From: Deltaproteobacteria bacterium
GTDB taxonomy: Bacteria > Desulfobacterota > DSM-4660 > Desulfatiglandales > Desulfatiglandaceae
Direction of reading: 5' to 3'
DNA: 62,894 bases
Assembly (NCBI GenBank): GCA_019307945.1
Contig: JAFDIS010000010.1
Coordinates: 1-62,894, forward strand
Shown: piece by piece, positions 30 to 8,886 of the stretch
Layout of the letters: each line of letters begins with the position of its first letter
Position numbering within the stretch: position 1 is the first letter of the stretch
Notes under the pieces: model-generated
What the model saw: only the letters and a program-made list of their open reading frames with translations
Told to the model about the DNA's origin: nothing
Database searches by the model: none
Translations under genes and position numbers: made by a program

Positions 30-698
30 GTGGTTGATTTGGTGGGATTGAAGAAGCAAGGTGCGGAAATTTCGGTCCGAAACGAATTCGAAGTCAATAG
101 AACGGAATTTACACATGAAGGATATCCTTACGATGCCTTTGTGTTTTACTCGCGTTTCAGCGGGACCATAGACGGAGATGAGTATTCCTTCAGAAAGTGC
201 TACGCCCGGGGGTGCGATAGAAACCTCTGTCCCCACGTGTCCCAGGCGGTCCTGATCGCCAACAGGTATCTGCAGAGGGATTATGCCGAGCTCAAAAAGG
301 CGGGAATTCAGGTGGAGGAAAAGCTGTTCACCCTGGAGGGTATGCTGGTCCGCTATGACCGCAAACGCGACGAGTTCGTCTCCCCGCTCATTCTGGACGA
401 TTACATCCGAATGGCAAAGGAGGGGGCTTCCGTTTCGACGGAGATTTCGCTGGAATACTTGCCCGCCGTGGAATATTTCGAGCACCGTGAAGAAAAACGC
501 GTGTTTTTCACCGCGAATTTCCGTGTCCGTTATCTGGAAAAGACACACATATGCCAGAGATGCGTGGCCTGCTTTGATATGAAAGAAGAGGCGGTGGAGA
601 AGGGCCCCGCCATGGAGTTGGCCAACTCGAGGCTTGCCGCCATCTACGAAGAACTGGATGCGGCCAATATCCGGTACGAGCCGGTTTACTTTTCCTGA
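30..698 (+). CDS. Conserved hypothetical Cys-containing protein, possibly 5'-truncated by the window edge
   Basis: I do not recognise a named family. The 222-residue product carries a Cys/His cluster near residues 58-69 (C-x4-C-x4-C-x-H) that resembles a small metal-binding knuckle of the SWIM type, and a second C-x2-C-x2-C group near residue 174. The rest alternates charged helices and strands, with no signal peptide or membrane segment. The GTG at 30 has no convincing ribosome binding site and the frame stays open to the first base of the window, so the true start may lie upstream. It ends just before the convergent regulator gene. A role in metal binding is inference only. Confidence 0.7.
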   Translation: MVDLVGLKKQGAEISVRNEFEVNRTEFTHEGYPYDAFVFYSRFSGTIDGDEYSFRKCYARGCDRNLCPHVSQAVLIANRYLQRDYAELKKAGIQVEEKLFTLEGMLVRYDRKRDEFVSPLILDDYIRMAKEGASVSTEISLEYLPAVEYFEHREEKRVFFTANFRVRYLEKTHICQRCVACFDMKEEAVEKGPAMELANSRLAAIYEELDAANIRYEPVYFS

Positions 699-709
699 GG
701 GAGGAGTTT

Positions 710-2095
710 TCAGACCTGGATTTTCTTTTCCACGTGGATCTCGTGTGCCTTGAGCCACTTCCAGAGGGTGACGCGGCTCACTCCGAGGAGCCGGGCGGCT
801 TCCGACTTGTTACCGCCCGCTTCTTTGAGCGCATGCAGGATGTCCTCCCTCCGGACCCTGGTTCTTCGGGGCCTCACAGCGGGTTTCTTGCCCACGGGGG
901 AGGAAATTTTTCCCCCTAGGTCCGGGGGCAGGTGCGAGGGCCCGATCAGGCCTCCCGGGCAGAGGACGAAAGCGTATTCCAGCGCATTGATTAATTCGCG
1001 GACGTTCCCCGGCCAGTCGCAGCCCGCCAAGCGCTCCATGGCCTCTTGATTTACGCCGGTGATTTTCTTTTTGCTCTTGAGCCCGATGCGGTGCACGAAG
1101 GTGTCCACCAGAAGGGGAATGTCTTCGCGGCGCTCCCGCAAGGGCGGCAGGTGTATCGGAATGACCCCGATGCGGTAATACAGGTCGTCACGGAATTTCC
1201 CTTCTTCCATGAGCTTGCCCAGGTCCTTGTTGGTGGCCGCGATGATGCGGACATCGATGGAGATGGGCTTGTGGTCCCCCACCTTTTCGATTTCCTTTTC
1301 CTGCAACACCCGCAGCAGCTTGACCTGCGTGGAGGGGGGCAGATCCCCGATCTCGTCCAGAAAGATGTCTCCCCCGCTGGCCGCCTCGAAGCGTCCCACC
1401 CGCGTCCGATCCGCGCCGGTAAAGGCACCCTTCACATGACCGAACAGCTCGCTCTCCAGGAGGGATTCATTGAGGGCCGCGCAATTCACCTTGATGAAGG
1501 GGCCTTCAGCCCGCGCACCCTGTCGATGGATGGCCGAGGCCACCAGTTCTTTTCCCGTGCCGCTTTCTCCGTAGATGACCACCGGGGCCTCGGATTGAGC
1601 TGCGTTCCGGATAAGGTCGAAGACTCGGAGCATGGGAACGGATTTTCCCACTATGCCCTCAAAGGAATCCTCTATGCTCAACGTCTCGCGAAGGGAGCGG
1701 ATGACCTTCTCCTTGGCCACCAGTTCCGTGCAGTCGGCAAGTGTTTCCACTCCGCCCACCACGTTGCCCTCGCGGTCGCGGAGAACGGCCGCGTTCTTGA
1801 GGGCGTGTAACGGACTTCCATCTTTTCTCCGCAGGACGCAGCGGCTCTGACGAACCGATCCAATGCTGAACAGGGCGCAGTGTCTTTTCCCTCCCTCCAG
1901 AATGGTTCCGAAACACTGATTGCAGTTGAGTATCCTGCAGGGTTTGCCGATGAGTTCCTCCTTGCGGTATCCTGTGATCTCCTCCATGGCCCGGTTGACG
2001 GAGAGGATGATCCCATCGGGGTCCACCACCATTAGGCCGTCCAGCATGGTCTCTACAATGGTCTCCCAATAACGGTTGTATTCTTCTTGCAGCAC
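710..2095 (-). CDS. Sigma-54-dependent transcriptional regulator (PAS - AAA+ - Fis HTH)
   Basis: This is a 461-residue bacterial enhancer-binding protein. The order is a PAS sensor domain (about 8-120), a central AAA+ domain with Walker A GESGTGKE (176-183), the sigma-54 contact loop GAFTGA (223-228) and DEIG (247-250), and a C-terminal Fis-type helix-turn-helix (about 428-452). The PAS domain has a cluster of cysteines (53, 58, 61, 73, 86), which could hold a metal or act as a thiol/redox sensor; that is inference. It has no receiver domain, so it is probably controlled by direct ligand or redox sensing. It is divergent from the tusA/hdr operon, which has a sigma-54 promoter, so it is the probable activator of that operon. 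Confidence 0.93.
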   Translation of the reverse strand: MLQEEYNRYWETIVETMLDGLMVVDPDGIILSVNRAMEEITGYRKEELIGKPCRILNCNQCFGTILEGGKRHCALFSIGSVRQSRCVLRRKDGSPLHALKNAAVLRDREGNVVGGVETLADCTELVAKEKVIRSLRETLSIEDSFEGIVGKSVPMLRVFDLIRNAAQSEAPVVIYGESGTGKELVASAIHRQGARAEGPFIKVNCAALNESLLESELFGHVKGAFTGADRTRVGRFEAASGGDIFLDEIGDLPPSTQVKLLRVLQEKEIEKVGDHKPISIDVRIIAATNKDLGKLMEEGKFRDDLYYRIGVIPIHLPPLRERREDIPLLVDTFVHRIGLKSKKKITGVNQEAMERLAGCDWPGNVRELINALEYAFVLCPGGLIGPSHLPPDLGGKISSPVGKKPAVRPRRTRVRREDILHALKEAGGNKSEAARLLGVSRVTLWKWLKAHEIHVEKKIQV

Positions 2096-2139: not shown

Positions 2140-2174
2140 AGTTAACTTTTTACTTATGTAAACGCCTGTTAACT
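2140..2174. promoter_or_regulatory. Palindromic candidate upstream activator site
   Basis: AGTTAAC at 2140-2146 is mirrored by GTTAACT at 2168-2174, and an inner TTTAC-TTAT-GTAAA palindrome sits at 2149-2162. The AT-rich element lies between the divergent regulator and the tusA/hdr operon, about 100-135 bp upstream of the sigma-54 promoter. That is the usual distance for an enhancer-binding protein. Binding by the adjacent regulator is inferred. Confidence 0.5.
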
Positions 2175-2275
2175 GTAAGCACTCTTTTTCCAGGGGTCAA
2201 GAGCAAAAGGGTCAAATCAAAATTATGATATCAGGTCAATCAGTTATCAGCAGAACCGTCTACTTGCGAGGGGCT

Positions 2276-2291
2276 TGGCATCGTCATTGCA
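2276..2291 (+). promoter_or_regulatory. Sigma-54 (-24/-12) promoter of the tusA/hdr operon
   Basis: TGGCAT-N5-TTGCA matches the sigma-54 consensus TGGCAC-N5-TTGC at all conserved positions except the last base of the -24 box. GG is at 2277-2278 and GC at 2289-2290, which gives the invariant spacing. Transcription would start near 2302, about 40 bases before the GTG chosen for the first tusA-like gene. The site lies inside the longer open frame, which argues against starts upstream of it. Confidence 0.72.
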
Positions 2292-2341
2292 TGCTGTTGA
2301 AAGTGCAGGTCAACGGGTCGATCGAAGATCGAGGAGGGATC

Positions 2342-2593
2342 GTGGGCGATGCTCAACAGGTGCACGGGGTCTTGGACTTGCGCGGGTGGCGCTGCCCCTG
2401 GTGCATACTCAAAGCACAAAGTCGTCTCCGCGGTATGAAGCAAGGCCAGATACTCGAGGTACTGCTGAGCGACCCGGATGTAGAATGGCATTTTCCCCGC
2501 ATTCTCGAAAACAGTCAAGATCGTCTCATAGGATTGGAATGCTGCAAAGACGGGCTCTACAGGGTCCGGATCCTGAGAGGGCGGTCGGCGTAA
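2342..2593 (+). CDS. TusA-family sulfur-carrier-like protein with CPWC in place of CPxP
   Basis: The 83-residue product has the TusA length and fold signature: LDLRG, a Cys-Pro active-site loop, then KxGxILEVLLSDP. TusA proteins carry a persulfide on the Cys of a CPxP motif; here the motif reads RCPWC, so the second Pro is a Cys and a CxxC pair is created. A further CC pair occurs near the C terminus. GTG at 2342 is chosen because GAGGAGGG lies directly upstream, the length fits the family, and the sigma-54 promoter lies between this codon and more upstream starts. It is the first gene of the hdr operon. Function in sulfur transfer or dithiol chemistry is inferred. Confidence 0.75.
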   Translation: MGDAQQVHGVLDLRGWRCPWCILKAQSRLRGMKQGQILEVLLSDPDVEWHFPRILENSQDRLIGLECCKDGLYRVRILRGRSA

Positions 2594-2661
2594 GAACCTA
2601 AAACTTTAAGAATCCGGCCGGGGTCGGCGGGGCGTCTCCGGGGATACGAAGGAGGATAGTC

Positions 2662-2916
2662 ATGGGAGAAGTAGATCTTCAGAGCATTAAACCGGCGAGC
2701 GTGGTGGATGCCAGGGGCGTGTCTTGCCCGGGGCCTCTGCTGGAGGCCAAGAAGGGCATCGGGAACGTCAAGGTCGGCGAGATTCTCGAGGTACTGTCCA
2801 ACGATCCGGGATCCAGGAATGATATTCCCGCCTGGGCCAAGAAAGTGGGGCATGAGTATCTGGGATACCTCAGCGTGGACGGGGCGGACCGGCTCTTTGT
2901 CAAGCGTCAAAAATAG
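2662..2916 (+). CDS. tusA: TusA-family sulfurtransferase / sulfur carrier
   Basis: This 84-residue protein has the canonical TusA core DARGVSCPGPLLEAKK, with the persulfide-carrying Cys in CPGP and the following GEILEVLSNDP strand. An AAGGAGGATAG ribosome binding site precedes the ATG. It lies 68 bp after the CPWC variant and 12 bp before flpD. Together with the DsrE protein at the far end of the operon it suggests persulfide delivery to, or acceptance from, an Hdr-like complex, as known for the sHdr sulfur-oxidation systems; the direction here is not known. Confidence 0.9.
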   Translation: MGEVDLQSIKPASVVDARGVSCPGPLLEAKKGIGNVKVGEILEVLSNDPGSRNDIPAWAKKVGHEYLGYLSVDGADRLFVKRQK

Positions 2917-2928
2917 GCGGGGGCTGCA

Positions 2929-3351
2929 ATGTCAGGCCGGGAGAACGAGGCAAAGATCCTGATCTTAGCTACCGAAGACTGCGCCTACCCGGGTGCCAAT
3001 GCGGTGGGTCAGGCACACATGAGCTATCCTGAAAACACTTACATCCTCAGGGTGCGGGCGCCGGTAATGTTTCCCGAGCGTTTTTATCTGGACTGCTTTG
3101 AAAAGGGAATTTACGGCATCATTATCGCTTCCTGCGGTGTGGAATGTCCGTACGAGGGTGCCTATGAAGCCTTGGCCTCCAGGATCGACAAGGTATATGG
3201 CATGATGAAAGAGCGGGGCCTCGACACCAGGAGGCTCCGCCTTACCGGAATTTGTACCGTGTGCACCAGGGCCTTTGTGAAAGAGGTCAATCAGATGAAT
3301 GAACTCGTCACGGAACTGGGTCCCCCGGGTACGGAGAAAAAGGCGGCTTGA
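2929..3351 (+). CDS. FlpD/MvhD-family iron-sulfur electron-transfer subunit
   Basis: The 140-residue protein belongs to the MvhD/FlpD/FrhD family ([2Fe-2S] subunit that passes electrons between a hydrogenase or dehydrogenase and HdrA). Visible features are the N-terminal TEDCAYPGAN region, SCGVECPYEGAYEA, and GICTVCTRAFVKEV, giving the Cys set typical of the family. Some relatives contain selenocysteine, but this copy uses Cys throughout. It is the first of the oxidoreductase subunits in the operon and probably docks onto one of the two HdrA proteins. Confidence 0.88.
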   Translation: MSGRENEAKILILATEDCAYPGANAVGQAHMSYPENTYILRVRAPVMFPERFYLDCFEKGIYGIIIASCGVECPYEGAYEALASRIDKVYGMMKERGLDTRRLRLTGICTVCTRAFVKEVNQMNELVTELGPPGTEKKAA

Positions 3352-3499
3352 TAAGCCCTTGATCAGCATTCCGACCACGGCCGCGGAATACGTCCCACAG
3401 CACCGGACAAGAGCAAACGGCACCATGGCGGGGGAGGCCGTTTTCGGTAACCCTTCCGGAAACGGACCTTGGTCGTGAGGCAAGGGAAAGGAATCTTCT

Positions 3500-4807
3500 A
3501 TGTCCACAGAAACCATGAAATTCGATGCACTGATCTTGGGAGGAGGCATCGCCGGGCTCCAGGCGGCCCTGGACCTGGCGGATCAGGATTTCAAAGTGGC
3601 CATCGTGGAAAAGGACGCATCCATCGGGGGGAAGATGATTCGGCTTTCAAAGGTCTTTCCGACGCTCGATTGCGCGAGCTGCATCACGACACCCAAGATG
3701 GCCGCCGCTGCACACCATGAGAACGTGAAAATCTTTACGTACTGCGATCTGGAGTCTCTAGAAGGTACTGGAGGAAAGCTGACCGCCTCTGTTCGGCAAA
3801 AACCCAGATTCGTTGACGAGGACAAGTGTATCGGTTGCAGACAGTGCGAGTACAACTGCCCAGTGATGGTGTCGGACCCGGAACAGGGCGGTTTTTCCGC
3901 GCGCAAGGCCATCTACATCCCTTTTTCGAACGCCATTCCCCAGACCGCATTGATGGACGTGGAGAATTGCACGTTATGCGGCAAATGCTCCAAGGTTTGT
4001 CCCACCGAGGCCGTTGATTATTTTCAGGAGCCCAGGATCTTTACCATAGAGGCCAAGACGGCGGTTATGACCACGGGCTTCGAGCTGACGCCCCTGGAGA
4101 ACAAGGTGCAGTATGGCGAGGGGAAGATTCCCAATGTGATCACGTCACTCGAGATGGAAAGACTTCTGGCGCCTCATGGGCCCTACAACCGGGTGTTGAG
4201 ACCTTCGGACGGGATGGAGCCGGATTCCGTGGCCTTCATTCAATGCGCCGGTTCCCGGGACAAGAGCATGGGTATTTCCTATTGTTCCAGGGTCTGCTGC
4301 ATGTACGCCATCAAACAGGCGATGCTGCTCTCCGGGGCCCTGCCCTTGGCCGATATCGCCATCTACTACATGGATATCAGGGCCTTCGGCAAAGGGTATG
4401 AACAGTTTTTTCAGAATGCGATGGCCATGGGCATCGCATTCATCAAAGGCAAGGTGGCCAGGATAGACGCCGGTGAGGGCGGGGCGGTTAGACTTCACTA
4501 TGAGGCCCAGGGAGAAGACGGAGGCGTTCGTACCGCAGATCACGATCTCGTGGTTCTGTCCCTGGGCATGGTTCCCGCGTGGAATCCCGCCGGAACCTGT
4601 ACGGTGTCCACGGGCGATGACGCCTTCATCAAAACGATTCGACCCAAGGTGGCTCCGACGTTGACCGATATGGAAGGCGTTTTCGTGGCAGGGGCGGCCG
4701 CCGGTCCCAAGGACATCGTAGATACCATCGTGGAGGCGGGAGCGGCGGCCATGGAGGCCTCCAAGTACCTGGCTTCATTGGCCCGGACCGTCAAAGCTGC
4801 TGCGTGA
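3500..4807 (+). CDS. hdrA: HdrA/QmoA-like FAD and iron-sulfur subunit
   Basis: This 435-residue flavoprotein starts with a Rossmann FAD motif (ILGGGIAGLQAALDLA), then the HdrA Cys segment LDCASCITTPKM. Two 4Fe-4S ferredoxin motifs follow (CIGCRQCEYNCPV and CTLCGKCSKVCPTEA, about residues 112-175), then a second FAD region with CAGSRD and YCSRVCCMYA. The size and order resemble QmoA and short HdrA proteins. HdrA is the flavin subunit that splits or merges electron flow in heterodisulfide reductase complexes. A 148-bp gap without a gene separates it from flpD; AAAGGAATC precedes the ATG. Its electron donor is unknown. Confidence 0.9.
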   Translation: MSTETMKFDALILGGGIAGLQAALDLADQDFKVAIVEKDASIGGKMIRLSKVFPTLDCASCITTPKMAAAAHHENVKIFTYCDLESLEGTGGKLTASVRQKPRFVDEDKCIGCRQCEYNCPVMVSDPEQGGFSARKAIYIPFSNAIPQTALMDVENCTLCGKCSKVCPTEAVDYFQEPRIFTIEAKTAVMTTGFELTPLENKVQYGEGKIPNVITSLEMERLLAPHGPYNRVLRPSDGMEPDSVAFIQCAGSRDKSMGISYCSRVCCMYAIKQAMLLSGALPLADIAIYYMDIRAFGKGYEQFFQNAMAMGIAFIKGKVARIDAGEGGAVRLHYEAQGEDGGVRTADHDLVVLSLGMVPAWNPAGTCTVSTGDDAFIKTIRPKVAPTLTDMEGVFVAGAAAGPKDIVDTIVEAGAAAMEASKYLASLARTVKAAA

Positions 4808-4845
4808 GGCGTGAGCTGAAGAAAAAGAAACCGGGAGAAACGGAA

Positions 4846-6780
4846 ATGGTCGATGAGAAACGGGACCAAGTGACGGCACCAGGACCAAAGGTAGGAGTGT
4901 ATGTCTGCCACTGCGGGGGCAACATTTCGGACCATGTGGATGTGGAAAAGGTCTGCGAAGACGCAAAAGGCATCCCCGGCGTGGTGACCGTCAAGAACAA
5001 CATGTTCATGTGCTCGGACCCCGGCCAGCAACTGATAATGGAGGACTTGAAGAACGGCACCATTGATCGTGTGGTGGTGGCGTCCTGTGCGCCGAGTCTC
5101 CATGAAAGCACTTTTAGGAGTGCCATTTCCAGGGCGGGGGGCAATCCTTATACATATGAGCACGCAAATATTCGGGAGCAGGTCAGCTGGGTACACCATG
5201 GCGAAGGGGCCACGGAAAAGGCGACTCGGCTGGTGGCGGCTGCGGTGGGAAAGGCCAGGGAGTTGCATCCACTGGAACCCTTCCGCGTGGATGCCAAACG
5301 CCATGCCACCGTGATCGGAGGAGGCGTTGCGGGTCTCCGCGCCGCAAAGGACCTGGCCGACCGCGGAATTCAGGTGGTCCTGATCGAAAAATCTCCTTTC
5401 CTGGGGGGATGGACCGCGCACTGGGATCGGTTGTCTCCCACCGAAGACGACGTCTCCGAGCTCATTCCGGAGCTTTGTCGGCAGGTACTGGATGACCCGG
5501 CCGTCGAAGTGCATACCTGTTCACAGGTGATCTCCTTTGAAGGCTTTATCGGGAATTTCAGGCTGGGCTTCAGAAAAGAGCCCCCCGCCGAGGGCGCGTA
5601 TGCGGAGGAAATCGAAAGAATGAAACAGTCGGGTGCGGATACGGGCGATTTCATTCCGCACGTCGGCGTCTGCCCGGAGCCTTTGCCCGAGGCAAGTGAG
5701 GAGCAGACGGTGGAAACCGGGGTCGTGGTCCTGGCCACGGGGTTCAGGCCTTACACGCCCCGCAAAGGCGAATACGGCTATGGAGAGATTAAGGAGGTCA
5801 TCACACTTCCGGACCTGATCAGGATCATAGCGGAGAACCGACGTGCGGGCGGAGGGCAACTACTTCAAGTCAACGGCAGGAAGATCCGCGCCATGGCCAT
5901 GATCCACTGTGTGGGGTCCAGACAGATTCCGGGAATCCACGAAGAGACGGAAGGCAGACCTCTCAACCAATATTGCTCCAGGGTCTGCTGCGGAGCCACC
6001 CTTCATGCCGCAAACCTGATCCGTGAAACGCACCCCGGCACACGCATATTCGATTTTTATCGGGATATCCGGACGTACGGGCGGGGGCAGGAAGAAGTCT
6101 ATGAGAAGGCCTCGGACAACAAGGTCCTTTTTTTCCGTTTCGAGGCACAAGATCCGCCGGAAGTGTCCGGGAATGCAGGAGAGGGAGACTTTCCCGTATC
6201 CGTCAAGGTAAAGGACACCCTGACCTTCGGTGAAGAGATCGAGACCAAAGTGGACCTGGTGGTCCTTGCCGTGGGCATGGAACCCAATGACGTCTCCGAT
6301 CTGGTGGAGATGATGAAACTCCCCGTAGGCGCGGACCGTTTCCTCCTGGAGGTTCATCCCAAGCTGCGACCTGTTGAGCTTTCCGTAAGCGGCGTTCTGG
6401 TGGCCGGCACGTCGCAGGCCCCGTTTGATGTGGGTGAGACCTGTGCCGCGGCTTCGGCCGCCGCTGTCAAGGCGTCGGCGGTCCTGGCAAGGGGGGGATT
6501 CGTGGAACTGGATCCCTTCATCGCGGAAATAGATATGGGCAAATGCAAAGGGACGGGTGCCTGCGTGGAGGCCTGTATCGTGGACGGCGCACTGCGTATG
6601 GTGGAGATGGATCTGGACGGCGAGAAAGTGCTTCGCCCCGAGGTCGTGCCCGCCTTGTGCCAGGGTTGCGGCGCATGCACGGCCGTGTGCCCGGAAAACG
6701 CCATCAATGTCTCCGGGTGGACCTTGAAGCAGTACGAAAAGATGGTCGAAATGATCGTCTCAGAGAAGCTTGCGGCCTGA
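4846..6780 (+). CDS. hdrA: Second HdrA-like FAD/Fe-S subunit (long HdrA, QmoB-like)
   Basis: The 644-residue protein begins with the HdrA N-terminal domain (VGVYVCHCGGNI), followed by an FAD-binding Rossmann core (GGGVAGLRAAKDLA, about residue 145), CVGSRQ and YCSRVCCGATLHAA, and ends with two ferredoxin motifs. The last (CQGCGACTAVCP) is complete. The preceding one (CKGTGACVEAC) lacks the second Cys of a normal 4Fe-4S motif. ATG 4846 is preferred over the GTG at 4804 because GGGAG stands eight bases upstream. Having two different HdrA proteins in one operon parallels QmoA/QmoB, but no membrane QmoC is present; soluble HdrB and HdrC follow instead. Confidence 0.9.
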   Translation: MVDEKRDQVTAPGPKVGVYVCHCGGNISDHVDVEKVCEDAKGIPGVVTVKNNMFMCSDPGQQLIMEDLKNGTIDRVVVASCAPSLHESTFRSAISRAGGNPYTYEHANIREQVSWVHHGEGATEKATRLVAAAVGKARELHPLEPFRVDAKRHATVIGGGVAGLRAAKDLADRGIQVVLIEKSPFLGGWTAHWDRLSPTEDDVSELIPELCRQVLDDPAVEVHTCSQVISFEGFIGNFRLGFRKEPPAEGAYAEEIERMKQSGADTGDFIPHVGVCPEPLPEASEEQTVETGVVVLATGFRPYTPRKGEYGYGEIKEVITLPDLIRIIAENRRAGGGQLLQVNGRKIRAMAMIHCVGSRQIPGIHEETEGRPLNQYCSRVCCGATLHAANLIRETHPGTRIFDFYRDIRTYGRGQEEVYEKASDNKVLFFRFEAQDPPEVSGNAGEGDFPVSVKVKDTLTFGEEIETKVDLVVLAVGMEPNDVSDLVEMMKLPVGADRFLLEVHPKLRPVELSVSGVLVAGTSQAPFDVGETCAAASAAAVKASAVLARGGFVELDPFIAEIDMGKCKGTGACVEACIVDGALRMVEMDLDGEKVLRPEVVPALCQGCGACTAVCPENAINVSGWTLKQYEKMVEMIVSEKLAA

Positions 6781-6833
6781 GGCCGATGAACCCCGGGGAA
6801 AATAGAATAAGGAATGTTTCCGGAGATACCGCA

Positions 6834-7151
6834 ATGAACGGGATGGGATCAGGGAAAGAGGGCCTGAAAGAAGCAATGAAAAGGCTCCGAAAAGAACGAA
6901 AAGAGATGATCGCCGCGGCTGCTGCAAAAGTTAAGGCCCAGAACAAGGCCGTCCGGGCCATCATGGAGCAACTGAGGGAGGGACCCAGGACCGTGCCCGA
7001 GATTGCCGATGCATCAGGCATCCCCACGGACCAGGTACTCTGGTATCTCGCTTCGTTGAAGAAATATGGAAAGGTCCTGGAGGGCGAGAAGGACGGCAGC
7101 TATTTTAGATACCAGGCGGCGGGGGCGGAAGAGGAACAGGCCGCCGGATGA
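6834..7151 (+). CDS. Small winged-helix protein embedded in the hdr operon
   Basis: The 105-residue protein has a basic helical N terminus followed by a winged-helix-like segment (VPEIADASGIPTDQVLWYLA, then KYGKVLEGEKDGSYFRY). ATG 6834 is preceded by GGAG with eight-base spacing; an upstream in-frame ATG at 6786 has no usable site. It sits between the long hdrA and hdrC, so it is probably co-produced with the complex. It could be a local regulator or an assembly/structural subunit; the sequence cannot decide. Confidence 0.75.
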   Translation: MNGMGSGKEGLKEAMKRLRKERKEMIAAAAAKVKAQNKAVRAIMEQLREGPRTVPEIADASGIPTDQVLWYLASLKKYGKVLEGEKDGSYFRYQAAGAEEEQAAG

Positions 7152-7206
7152 CGGTGAACGCCGCCGAGCCCGATCTGTTTGGAATTCCTCGGAGGGGGAT
7201 TTGGTT

Positions 7207-7509
7207 ATGACCCAGGTGAATCCCGAGTTTGCTGAAAAACTGGAAGATTTCGGCGTGGACACCACAACGGATTGTTTCAATTGTGGGACATGCGCCGCCA
7301 TATGTCCGCTCATCTACGAGCATTTCCCGAGAAAGATAATCCGCTACGTCCAGATCGGAGCAAAGGACCGGATCCTGGACAACTACGAAGACCTCTGGAA
7401 ATGCCTCCATTGCGGGCTTTGTATCCAGACCTGCCCGAGGGAGGCGGATCCGGGCGACATCATCATGGGGTTGCGACGCTTTGTGGTGGATCAGTGGAGG
7501 AGGTCGTAA
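7207..7509 (+). CDS. hdrC: HdrC-like iron-sulfur subunit
   Basis: This 100-residue protein has two 4Fe-4S motifs, CFNCGTCAAICPL and CLHCGLCIQTCPREA, separated by the typical HdrC linker with R-x-IRYVQIG. HdrC carries electrons between HdrA and the catalytic HdrB. ATG 7207 follows a GGAGGGG site; more upstream in-frame codons lie within the spacer after the winged-helix gene. The stop codon is one base before the hdrB start codon, so the two are translationally coupled. Confidence 0.92.
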   Translation: MTQVNPEFAEKLEDFGVDTTTDCFNCGTCAAICPLIYEHFPRKIIRYVQIGAKDRILDNYEDLWKCLHCGLCIQTCPREADPGDIIMGLRRFVVDQWRRS

Positions 7510-7510
7510 G

Positions 7511-8437
7511 ATGTATAACCCGAGATATATCATTGACGTACTGGCGGACAATATCCGCAAGACGCGCAATCCTTTTGGTGCGGGAAACGGTACGGTGAAC
7601 AAGTGGTGGAAGGGCGTCAACCTGCGTACCGAAGGCGATGCCATGCTTTATACGGGTCTCATGTATCAACTGATGCCCTACATCAAGAAAACCACCAAGC
7701 AGATCGAGAAATTCGAAGACACCACCCTTGCCGATTACGTGGGTCTCCAGAAATATGTGCCCAAAGTGATGGTCAAATCCGCCTTCGTGTTCATGGCATC
7801 AAGGAAGGACAAGGAATACTTCGGCGGAATTCTGCGCAATATCGTGAAGCTGCTCGAGAGATCAGGCGTGGACTTTTTCTACCGTCCCAAACTGGACTAC
7901 TACAGTGGGATCCTGCTTTATGACCTGGGAGATCTTCAGGGATTTATCGAGCATGCGAAGTTTGTGGCGGGAAAACTGAAAGAAAAGGGGATCAGAAAGG
8001 TGATTACGGTGGATCCTCATACCACCTATGCCCTGAAGGTGCTTTATCCGAAATACACGGGGATAAATTTCGAAGTGAAGACCTATTTCGAACGGCTGAA
8101 TTTCAAGGGCAACGGGTATGGCAAACAGGTGACGCTTCACGACCCCTGTTTTTATGGAAGGTACCTGGAACTGTCCGATGTGCCCGCGAGGATCCTGGAT
8201 GAGTTCGGGATTGAAAACGTCAAAGTCAGAAACTCCGGCAAGTTTACCGGTTGTTGCGGCGGTCCGGCCGAATCCATATCCCCCGCCCTGACCAAGGAGA
8301 TCCTGAGCAGGAGATACGCGGACCTCAAGGAAACGGGCAAACCCATTGTCGCCATGTGCCCCATCTGCCTGGGGAATCTAATCAAGGCCGGCGCTGACGT
8401 CCAGGATCTCTCCGCCCTGCTTGCGGACTGTGCGTAA
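7511..8437 (+). CDS. hdrB: HdrB-like CCG-domain subunit
   Basis: The 308-residue product carries one complete CCG (cysteine-rich) domain in its C-terminal half: HDPCFYGRY, FTGCCGGPAES and CPICLGNL. The N-terminal half has no cysteines, whereas classic HdrB has two CCG domains that bind two non-cubane 4Fe-4S clusters for heterodisulfide cleavage. This copy therefore probably holds a single cluster. AGGAGG is eight bases upstream of the ATG. It is the likely substrate-binding or sulfur-handling end of the Hdr complex. Confidence 0.88.
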   Translation: MYNPRYIIDVLADNIRKTRNPFGAGNGTVNKWWKGVNLRTEGDAMLYTGLMYQLMPYIKKTTKQIEKFEDTTLADYVGLQKYVPKVMVKSAFVFMASRKDKEYFGGILRNIVKLLERSGVDFFYRPKLDYYSGILLYDLGDLQGFIEHAKFVAGKLKEKGIRKVITVDPHTTYALKVLYPKYTGINFEVKTYFERLNFKGNGYGKQVTLHDPCFYGRYLELSDVPARILDEFGIENVKVRNSGKFTGCCGGPAESISPALTKEILSRRYADLKETGKPIVAMCPICLGNLIKAGADVQDLSALLADCA

Positions 8438-8511
8438 ATAGAGATAGGTTTCAGGAATCAGACCGGAAGGAAATTGGAAATCAAATTGAAAAAGGAGGAG
8501 GAAAAAGCGGA

Positions 8512-8886
8512 ATGAGCCAGGAACCTAAGGAAAAGATTGTTTATATTGCAACTCATGCAGGAGAAGACCCGGAGAGGGCCACCCTTCCCTTTGCGCTGGC
8601 CAACGCCGCGTTGGCCATGGAGGTTGAAGCGATCGTATTCTTGCAGGGAACCGGCGTCTACCTGGCCAAAAAGGGTTACCTGGAGAATGTGCACGCGGGG
8701 GGCTTCGCACCACTCAAGGAATTAGTGGCGAGTTTCCTGGAAGGCGGAGGTAAGCTCATGGTGTGCGTGCCCTGTATCCAGCACCGGAACATCGAGGAGT
8801 CGGACTTGATCGAGGGGGCAACTCCCACGGCGGGCGGGACGATGACCCTGGAGATGCTCGATGCCAACGCCACCCTTGTGTATTGA
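8512..8886 (+). CDS. DsrE-family sulfur-relay protein
   Basis: This 124-residue protein has the DsrE/DsrF-like fold signature: an N-terminal strand KIVYIATHAGEDPERATLPF, an AMEVEAIVFLQGTGV strand-helix and a Cys (VCVPCIQ) near residue 85 in the position where DsrE relatives carry the persulfide. A strong AGGAGGA site precedes the ATG. DsrE and TusA exchange sulfane sulfur in sulfur oxidisers. Here a DsrE and two TusA-like proteins bracket the Hdr subunits, which supports a sulfur-linked role. Confidence 0.85.
   Translation: MSQEPKEKIVYIATHAGEDPERATLPFALANAALAMEVEAIVFLQGTGVYLAKKGYLENVHAGGFAPLKELVASFLEGGGKLMVCVPCIQHRNIEESDLIEGATPTAGGTMTLEMLDANATLVY

Follow-up and report, generated by a model that had tools for sequence, protein, structure and literature searches.

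The DNA analyzed here (the window) is a stretch of 62,894 nucleotides from a deltaproteobacterium of the Desulfatiglandaceae (assembly GCA_019307945.1, contig JAFDIS010000010.1), the family to which NaphS2, a sulfate reducer that degrades naphthalene, also belongs. It is one contig (C96) of a 4.16-Mb genome in 185 contigs; below, G, L and C numbers denote genomes, loci and contigs of this genome (G000), respectively. On the + strand, at 2342-8886, the window carries an operon with the order TusA-TusA-FlpD-HdrA-HdrA-winged-helix-HdrC-HdrB-DsrE, in which every gene is intact as judged from open reading frames and Pfam matches (Table 1). An earlier reading of the letters alone (the original prediction) had given the same order, with all genes that we found except the winged-helix gene between HdrA2 and HdrC (6834-7151), which it overlooked. 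This gene is kept in relatives (39 sequences aligned), where it likewise lies between HdrA2 and HdrC or QmoC. The TusA/DsrE-linked operon with two HdrA proteins is a real and conserved gene set.

Table 1. Features of the operon and its upstream region (positions in the window)
Feature	Position	Strand	Support and remarks
up30, cysteine-rich conserved protein, 222 aa, fold unassigned	30..698	+	5' start possibly truncated by contig edge
Sigma-54 activator, divergent; PAS, AAA+ and Fis-type helix-turn-helix (HTH) domains	710..2095	-	Pfam Sigma54_activat 2.3e-70, PAS, HTH_8
Predicted -24/-12 sigma-54 promoter site, TTGGCATCGTCATTGCA	2274..2290	+	Equivalent sites in related loci
TusA1 (CPWC variant)	2342..2593	+	PF01206 6.9e-14; optional gene, many loci without it
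TusA2 (CPGP), core sulfur carrier	2662..2916	+	PF01206 2.7e-20
FlpD/MvhD-type iron-sulfur subunit	2929..3351	+	PF02662 7.7e-21
HdrA1, 435 aa	3500..4807	+	NF040770 positions 138-561 of 777
HdrA2, 644 aa	4846..6780	+	NF040770 in two stretches
Small winged-helix protein, 105 aa	6834..7151	+	Weak Pfam FaeA/TrmB matches
HdrC, 100 aa, two [4Fe-4S] motifs	7207..7509	+	NF038018 qmoC 4e-22, profile positions 4-94
HdrB-like protein, 308 aa, single CCG site	7511..8437	+	PF02754, one copy
DsrE-family protein (VCVPC)	8512..8886	+	PF02635 4e-17

Related loci were drawn from genomes of the same family, from other families of the phylum and from named genomes, the search being made within Desulfobacterota. 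Across this phylum the order TusA2-FlpD-HdrA1-HdrA2-winged-helix-HdrC-HdrB-DsrE (the cassette) recurs, including in NaphS2 and Desulfosarcina widdelii, and in a distant tier of loci (L136-L139, in G115, G237, G185 and G262) it is kept at 28-57% identity. TusA2, FlpD, HdrA1, HdrA2, HdrC (or the HdrC part of a QmoC-like fusion) and DsrE were detected in all 19 cassette loci. This conservation of gene order excludes a chance arrangement, and its persistence at 28-57% identity makes TusA and DsrE core parts of the set, not accidental neighbours. We rejected a chance association of TusA/DsrE, as TusA2 and DsrE accompany the set in 19/19 loci, and they stand as conserved partners. Two TusA carriers, also part of the original prediction, are present here but do not represent a general trait: TusA1 is lineage-specific and only TusA2 belongs to the core. 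The pairwise distances of the core subunits correlate over the 19 loci (Spearman 0.66-0.90), although vertical descent alone would give likewise. The presence of the cassette is patchy (16 of 99 relatives). In G237 the cassette has a further HdrC/CCG/HdrA1-like gene group as its immediate neighbour (L137, 1-1651).

The two HdrA proteins divide iron-sulfur ligands of HdrA between them, the core cysteines being in HdrA1 and the N-domain and C-terminal ferredoxin in HdrA2. HdrA1 consists of the HdrA FAD core with the inserted ferredoxin domain and lacks the N-terminal domain and the C-terminal ferredoxin; the 14 cysteines that it has in common with methanogen HdrA are invariant in 34/34 sequences, as is an extra one, C82. 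HdrA2 combines the HdrA N-domain, the FAD domain and the C-terminal ferredoxin, has no inserted ferredoxin, and its cysteines are conserved, one of its clusters having only three. At L136-L139, HdrA1 is 705-747 aa long and contains an inserted stretch that reads as GltD/NfnL-like in the sequence and suggests a link to NAD(P)H. FlpD is the counterpart of the C-terminal portion in fused HdrA proteins (C109 and C112 in 35/35), and HdrC, with its eight cysteines present in 41/41 aligned sequences, is closest to the N-terminal part of QmoC. The soluble Hdr set is not 'complete' as had been thought, since HdrB has one CCG site, with C213, C248, C249, C283 and C286 present in 37/37 aligned sequences. 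In the cassette orthologs the N-terminal site has degenerated and its cysteines are gone; the qmo-linked HdrB of the same genome has two. An AlphaFold2 model of the cassette HdrB matches EtfD, LutA and HdrB folds. On the side of the carriers, the active-site Cys22 of TusA2 is found in 34/34 aligned sequences and DsrE has C85 in 32/34 and C88 in 35/35, while TusA1 keeps its first cysteine in 16/19 and its second in 9/19. Flavin-based bifurcation, part of the original prediction, may be an activity of the cassette; what the sequences show is the conservation of cofactor ligands.

In a tree of 52 FAD-core sequences, HdrA1 formed a clade (support 100) nested among bacterial HdrA and HdrA2 a clade of its own (97), with matching deep branching of the two among lineages, and the canonical QmoA+QmoB clade (100) excluded both. 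Bit scores were 197-212 for HdrA1 against QmoA and 117-157 for HdrA2 against QmoB, and ∼270-480 for both against most full-length HdrA. An ordinary methanogen-type Hdr or Flox complex with TusA/DsrE as incidental neighbours, the outcome that would have spoken against the original prediction, is thus not what the separate clades of HdrA1 and HdrA2 and the constant company of TusA2 and DsrE (19/19 loci) indicate.

The output module of the cassette is variable. At L046, L047, L048 and L055 a QmoC-like protein with two iron-sulfur sites and a hydrophobic cytochrome b-like region takes the place of HdrC and HdrB, and the other cassette genes are kept; the two such proteins that were scored matched the full length of the qmoC model with 191-195 bits, below the 300-bit equivalog cut-off. 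At L140 an HdrC-CCG fusion is positioned after DsrE. A membrane subunit is missing from this locus, as had been noted, but several sister loci have the QmoC-like one. Canonical Qmo undergoes the same swap: qmoAB-hdrCB is found in NaphS2 and in this genome (contig C183, L147, where the order is qmoAB-hdrC-hdrB and QmoC is absent), and qmoABC in D. widdelii. QmoC and HdrBC have been described as alternatives in Qmo (PMC10504309). As HdrB can be lost with TusA and DsrE still present, the reaction that faces the carriers would more likely take place at HdrA1/HdrA2 than at HdrB, an argument that is weakened by the TusA-less version of the set described below.

The most likely start of TusA1 is GTG 2342 behind GAGGAGG, the ATG at 2225 being disfavoured, and ∼50 bp ahead of this start lies TTGGCAtcgtcaTTGCA (2274-2290). 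A near-consensus [ACT]TGGCA...TTGC was the best match in all 17 intergenic regions separating the activator gene from the first tusA (window included), its -24/-12 score being reached by ≤1% of shuffles, and a homolog of the activator is present in 16 of the 19 cassette loci. The two marks of a sigma-54-dependent operon, a -24/-12 element and a cognate activator (here the divergent PAS-AAA-Fis protein), were thus both found at the level of sequence, which bears out the earlier proposal of sigma-54 control. This control appears to be conserved, and the conservation of the site is the strongest regulatory evidence short of transcripts. Because the intergenic gaps inside the operon are 1-148 bp and sites resembling intrinsic terminators are no commoner within it than in shuffles, we infer that its genes are co-transcribed.

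The source genome contains both dsrA and aprA (the latter on contig C108, outside the window), in agreement with the sulfur-metabolising host of the original prediction, which had proposed a search for dsr/apr genes elsewhere in the genome. In a sample of 297 Desulfobacterota genomes, 143 passed the dsrA cut-off, among them all 15 cassette carriers, which came from ten families (hypergeometric P = 1.2e-5, assuming independent genomes, which they are not). All 13 carriers that were checked had aprA, 12 of them above the cut-off. One of the carriers among the nearer relatives, G045 (80% complete), gave no full dsrA match. A version of the set consisting of HdrA1, HdrA2 and the winged-helix protein, with no TusA/DsrE seen nearby, occurs in four relatives of the same order, three of which (G051, G054 and G082) have no full dsrA; the sulfur carriers would therefore mark the version that belongs to sulfate reducers. 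At L051-L053, in genomes without full dsrA, such sets come with an FlpD-like piece and no TusA/DsrE nearby.

Members of the NaphS2 group carry, behind the operon, two genes for rhodanese proteins, one for a TPR protein and one for a YeeE/YedE transporter, and at three loci of this group the operon is preceded by two small proteins shared with a YTD-type cluster on contig C105 of our genome. These neighbours tie the operon to the handling of sulfane sulfur; YeeE/YedE and YTD-type genes are connected with sulfur oxidation or disproportionation in PMC13293266 and PMC9751629. The cluster on C105 (L146, 15444-18035) consists of TPR, YeeE/YedE, TusA and the two small proteins and adjoins a DsrK-like gene; no Pfam DsrE was found in it alongside YeeE, TusA and the small proteins. 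We considered that the cassette DsrE might complete a type II DsrEFH of C105, but this type II DsrE may already be one of the two small proteins of C105. Elsewhere in the genome, on C41 and C118 (L148, L154 and L198-L201), GcvH-like (lipoyl) domains lie beside large HdrA genes, partly with in-frame TGA that probably encodes selenocysteine; these loci are possible lipoate-linked Hdr systems.

The gene at 30-698, up30, lies outside the coordinates given in the original prediction but has orthologs adjoining the cassette in 14 of the 19 loci and is a conserved member of the locus in most of the closer relatives. Its invariant residues C57, C62, C67, H69, C178 and C181 form the pattern CX4CX4CPH...CXXC. 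Profile searches gave no Pfam or NCBIfam match for up30, and its AlphaFold2 model (pLDDT 85), which predicts a unit of three strands and one helix that occurs twice, matched no PDB fold (best E 5.6e-3, TM 0.12).

What might the operon do? Judging from its sequence, a function in the conversion of sulfane sulfur is likely. That it encodes a flavin complex resembling Qmo but having sulfane sulfur bound to TusA/DsrE as its partner, instead of adenosine 5'-phosphosulfate (APS) reductase, is a proposition to which we give an even chance. With regard to complex formation, substrate, direction of flow and bifurcation, we infer the following scheme. HdrA1, HdrA2 and FlpD would substitute for QmoA and QmoB, and a second module would be made up of HdrC and the one-cluster HdrB. 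Sulfur would enter, in some relatives via YeeE/YedE and the rhodaneses, and be held as a persulfide on TusA2/DsrE, which would present it to the flavin/iron-sulfur core. Electrons would then move between this persulfide and a second partner, which here, at HdrB with its single noncubane cluster, could be a protein thiol/disulfide and, in relatives with the QmoC-like subunit, the menaquinone pool; FlpD and the ferredoxin domain of HdrA2 might link the complex to a carrier of low potential. Overall, sulfane sulfur would be oxidized or disproportionated to feed the Dsr/Apr pathway, a process turned on by the sigma-54 activator. Several points weigh against this scheme. The HdrA1-HdrA2 core also exists without sulfur carriers, so that its chemistry may not be specific for sulfur; no electron donor for FlpD is encoded near the operon; the HdrA tree includes neither sHdrA nor archaeal type II QmoAB; and sequence alone cannot give the direction of electron flow.

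If the electrons ran the other way, ferredoxin or NADH would, by confurcation or bifurcation via HdrA and FlpD, reduce the polysulfide or persulfide held by TusA/DsrE to sulfide, and the operon would encode a cytoplasmic sulfur or trisulfide reductase for S0/polysulfide respiration or detoxification. HdrB/HdrA complexes normally reduce disulfides, the GltD/NfnL-like insert in distant HdrA1 suggests NAD(P)H as a source of electrons, and the gene content of the carriers is that of sulfate reducers, all of which would suit a reductase. The association with YeeE/YedE and YTD-type genes (linked to sulfur oxidation or disproportionation in PMC13293266 and PMC9751629), however, fits oxidation at least equally well, and the QmoC-like variant would need an uphill push of electrons from menaquinol; we regard a reductive role as possible but rather unlikely.

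Energy metabolism may also not be involved at all, TusA and DsrE shifting sulfur to biosynthetic or sensing functions, with the carriers kept reduced by the Hdr proteins, in a stress or assimilation unit under sigma-54. A PAS sensor in the activator, the winged-helix protein and the conserved cysteine-rich up30 at the locus, and the patchy occurrence would all agree with such sulfur delivery or homeostasis. Yet a general homeostasis system has no need of the dsrA found in every carrier of the phylum sample, and a big multi-subunit redox complex seems excessive for mere maintenance, which makes this explanation improbable. We give still less credence to an ordinary Hdr/Flox-type bifurcating complex for the oxidation of organic substrates (aromatics, alkanes) with TusA/DsrE incidentally co-transcribed, even though hydrocarbon degraders (NaphS2, D. 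widdelii) are among the carriers, HdrA1 is nested among bacterial HdrA and versions without TusA/DsrE exist. Against it stand the constancy of TusA2 and DsrE in the cassette loci, deep branches included, with invariant active cysteines, and the fact that TusA/DsrE remain where QmoC has replaced HdrCB.

The route by which sulfate reducers oxidize or disproportionate intermediate sulfur is an open question. A part for sulfur carriers in it has been argued for in PMC13293266 and PMC12998232, which in the portions consulted name no dedicated Hdr-type complex for such carriers. The operon offers a conserved candidate complex with a clear gene boundary and promoter, and if the sulfane-sulfur scheme is true, sulfate reducers may process protein-bound sulfur by means of it. 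As the carriers include the cultured and sequenced strains NaphS2 and Desulfosarcina widdelii PP31, proteomics and sulfur-transfer assays are conceivable.

Finally, we compared the cassette with known systems. A literature search for the exact gene set, with most subscription journals outside its reach, returned no description, nor is the set described in the consulted parts of PMC13293266, PMC12998232, PMC9751629, PMC4911364 and PMC12142623, which deal with the YTD cluster and disproportionation. With the YTD cluster, also present elsewhere in this genome, the cassette shares TusA and DsrE-family carriers in sulfate reducers, and parts of that cluster adjoin the operon in the NaphS2 group; the YTD cluster differs in having no Hdr subunits and in that its two small proteins, unlike the cassette DsrE, have no Pfam DsrE match. 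HdrABC-MvhD and FloxABCD-HdrABC are similar to the cassette in their HdrA, FlpD/MvhD, HdrC and HdrB parts and in conserved iron-sulfur ligands, which the cassette has split over HdrA1 and HdrA2. In contrast to them, the cassette has two partial HdrA proteins instead of one, an HdrB with one CCG site where these systems have two, and fixed TusA/DsrE, and no hydrogenase, Fdh or Flox genes are adjacent.

The original prediction had seen traits of sHdr and of Qmo mixed in the operon; traits like those of both systems are indeed present, but nothing indicates that the two were mixed by descent. As in sHdr-LbpA systems, HdrA-, HdrB- and HdrC-type subunits occur alongside TusA and DsrE carriers. However, sHdr needs a syntenic gene set (PMC11582611), which is shdrC1B1AHC2B2 in type I and shdrC1B1AHB3 together with etfAB in type II, and we rejected membership of the cassette, which has one HdrC and one HdrB and no HdrC2/B2 or B3, sHdrH or EtfAB; neither within 2342-8886 nor in relatives did we find a second HdrB/HdrC set or EtfAB. 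The lipoate-binding protein LbpA, which the original prediction had also proposed to look for, is absent from the locus, the six GCV_H matches of the genome being on C41, C118, C138 and C171. In addition, HdrA1 retains the inserted ferredoxin domain, unlike sHdr, and matches sHdrA (6TJR) over part of its length with 122 bits, as against 311-380 for solved HdrA.

The likeness to Qmo lies in the two HdrA-like subunits, FlpD and an HdrC-type subunit, and in an output module that alternates between HdrCB and membrane QmoC, the third module by which Qmo is defined (QmoC or HdrBC) being represented here by HdrC and HdrB. In the cassette, however, FlpD has a gene of its own, the CCG site of HdrB is single, TusA/DsrE adjoin and aprAB is not adjacent, and the cassette clades lie apart from the QmoAB of this genome, NaphS2 and D. 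widdelii. Membership in canonical Qmo was therefore rejected, as HdrA1 and HdrA2 fall outside the QmoA+QmoB clade and show no linkage to aprAB. Type II QmoAB is said to be nearer to HdrA than to canonical QmoAB (Neukirchen 2023, PMC10504309). HdrA1 and HdrA2 are likewise closer to HdrA than to canonical QmoAB, by scores and by a tree without type II references, and the operon may lie within or next to the type II QmoAB lineage. The design of Qmo, with two HdrA-like subunits and a swappable output, exists in a second form that is linked to sulfur carriers. We tentatively suggest, with somewhat less than even confidence, that the cassette adds a third kind to the Hdr-based sulfur machineries sHdr and Qmo. 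It would be a flavin complex similar to Qmo that depends on TusA/DsrE and whose output can be either soluble or in the membrane, and sulfate reducers could use it to oxidize or disproportionate protein-bound sulfane sulfur.

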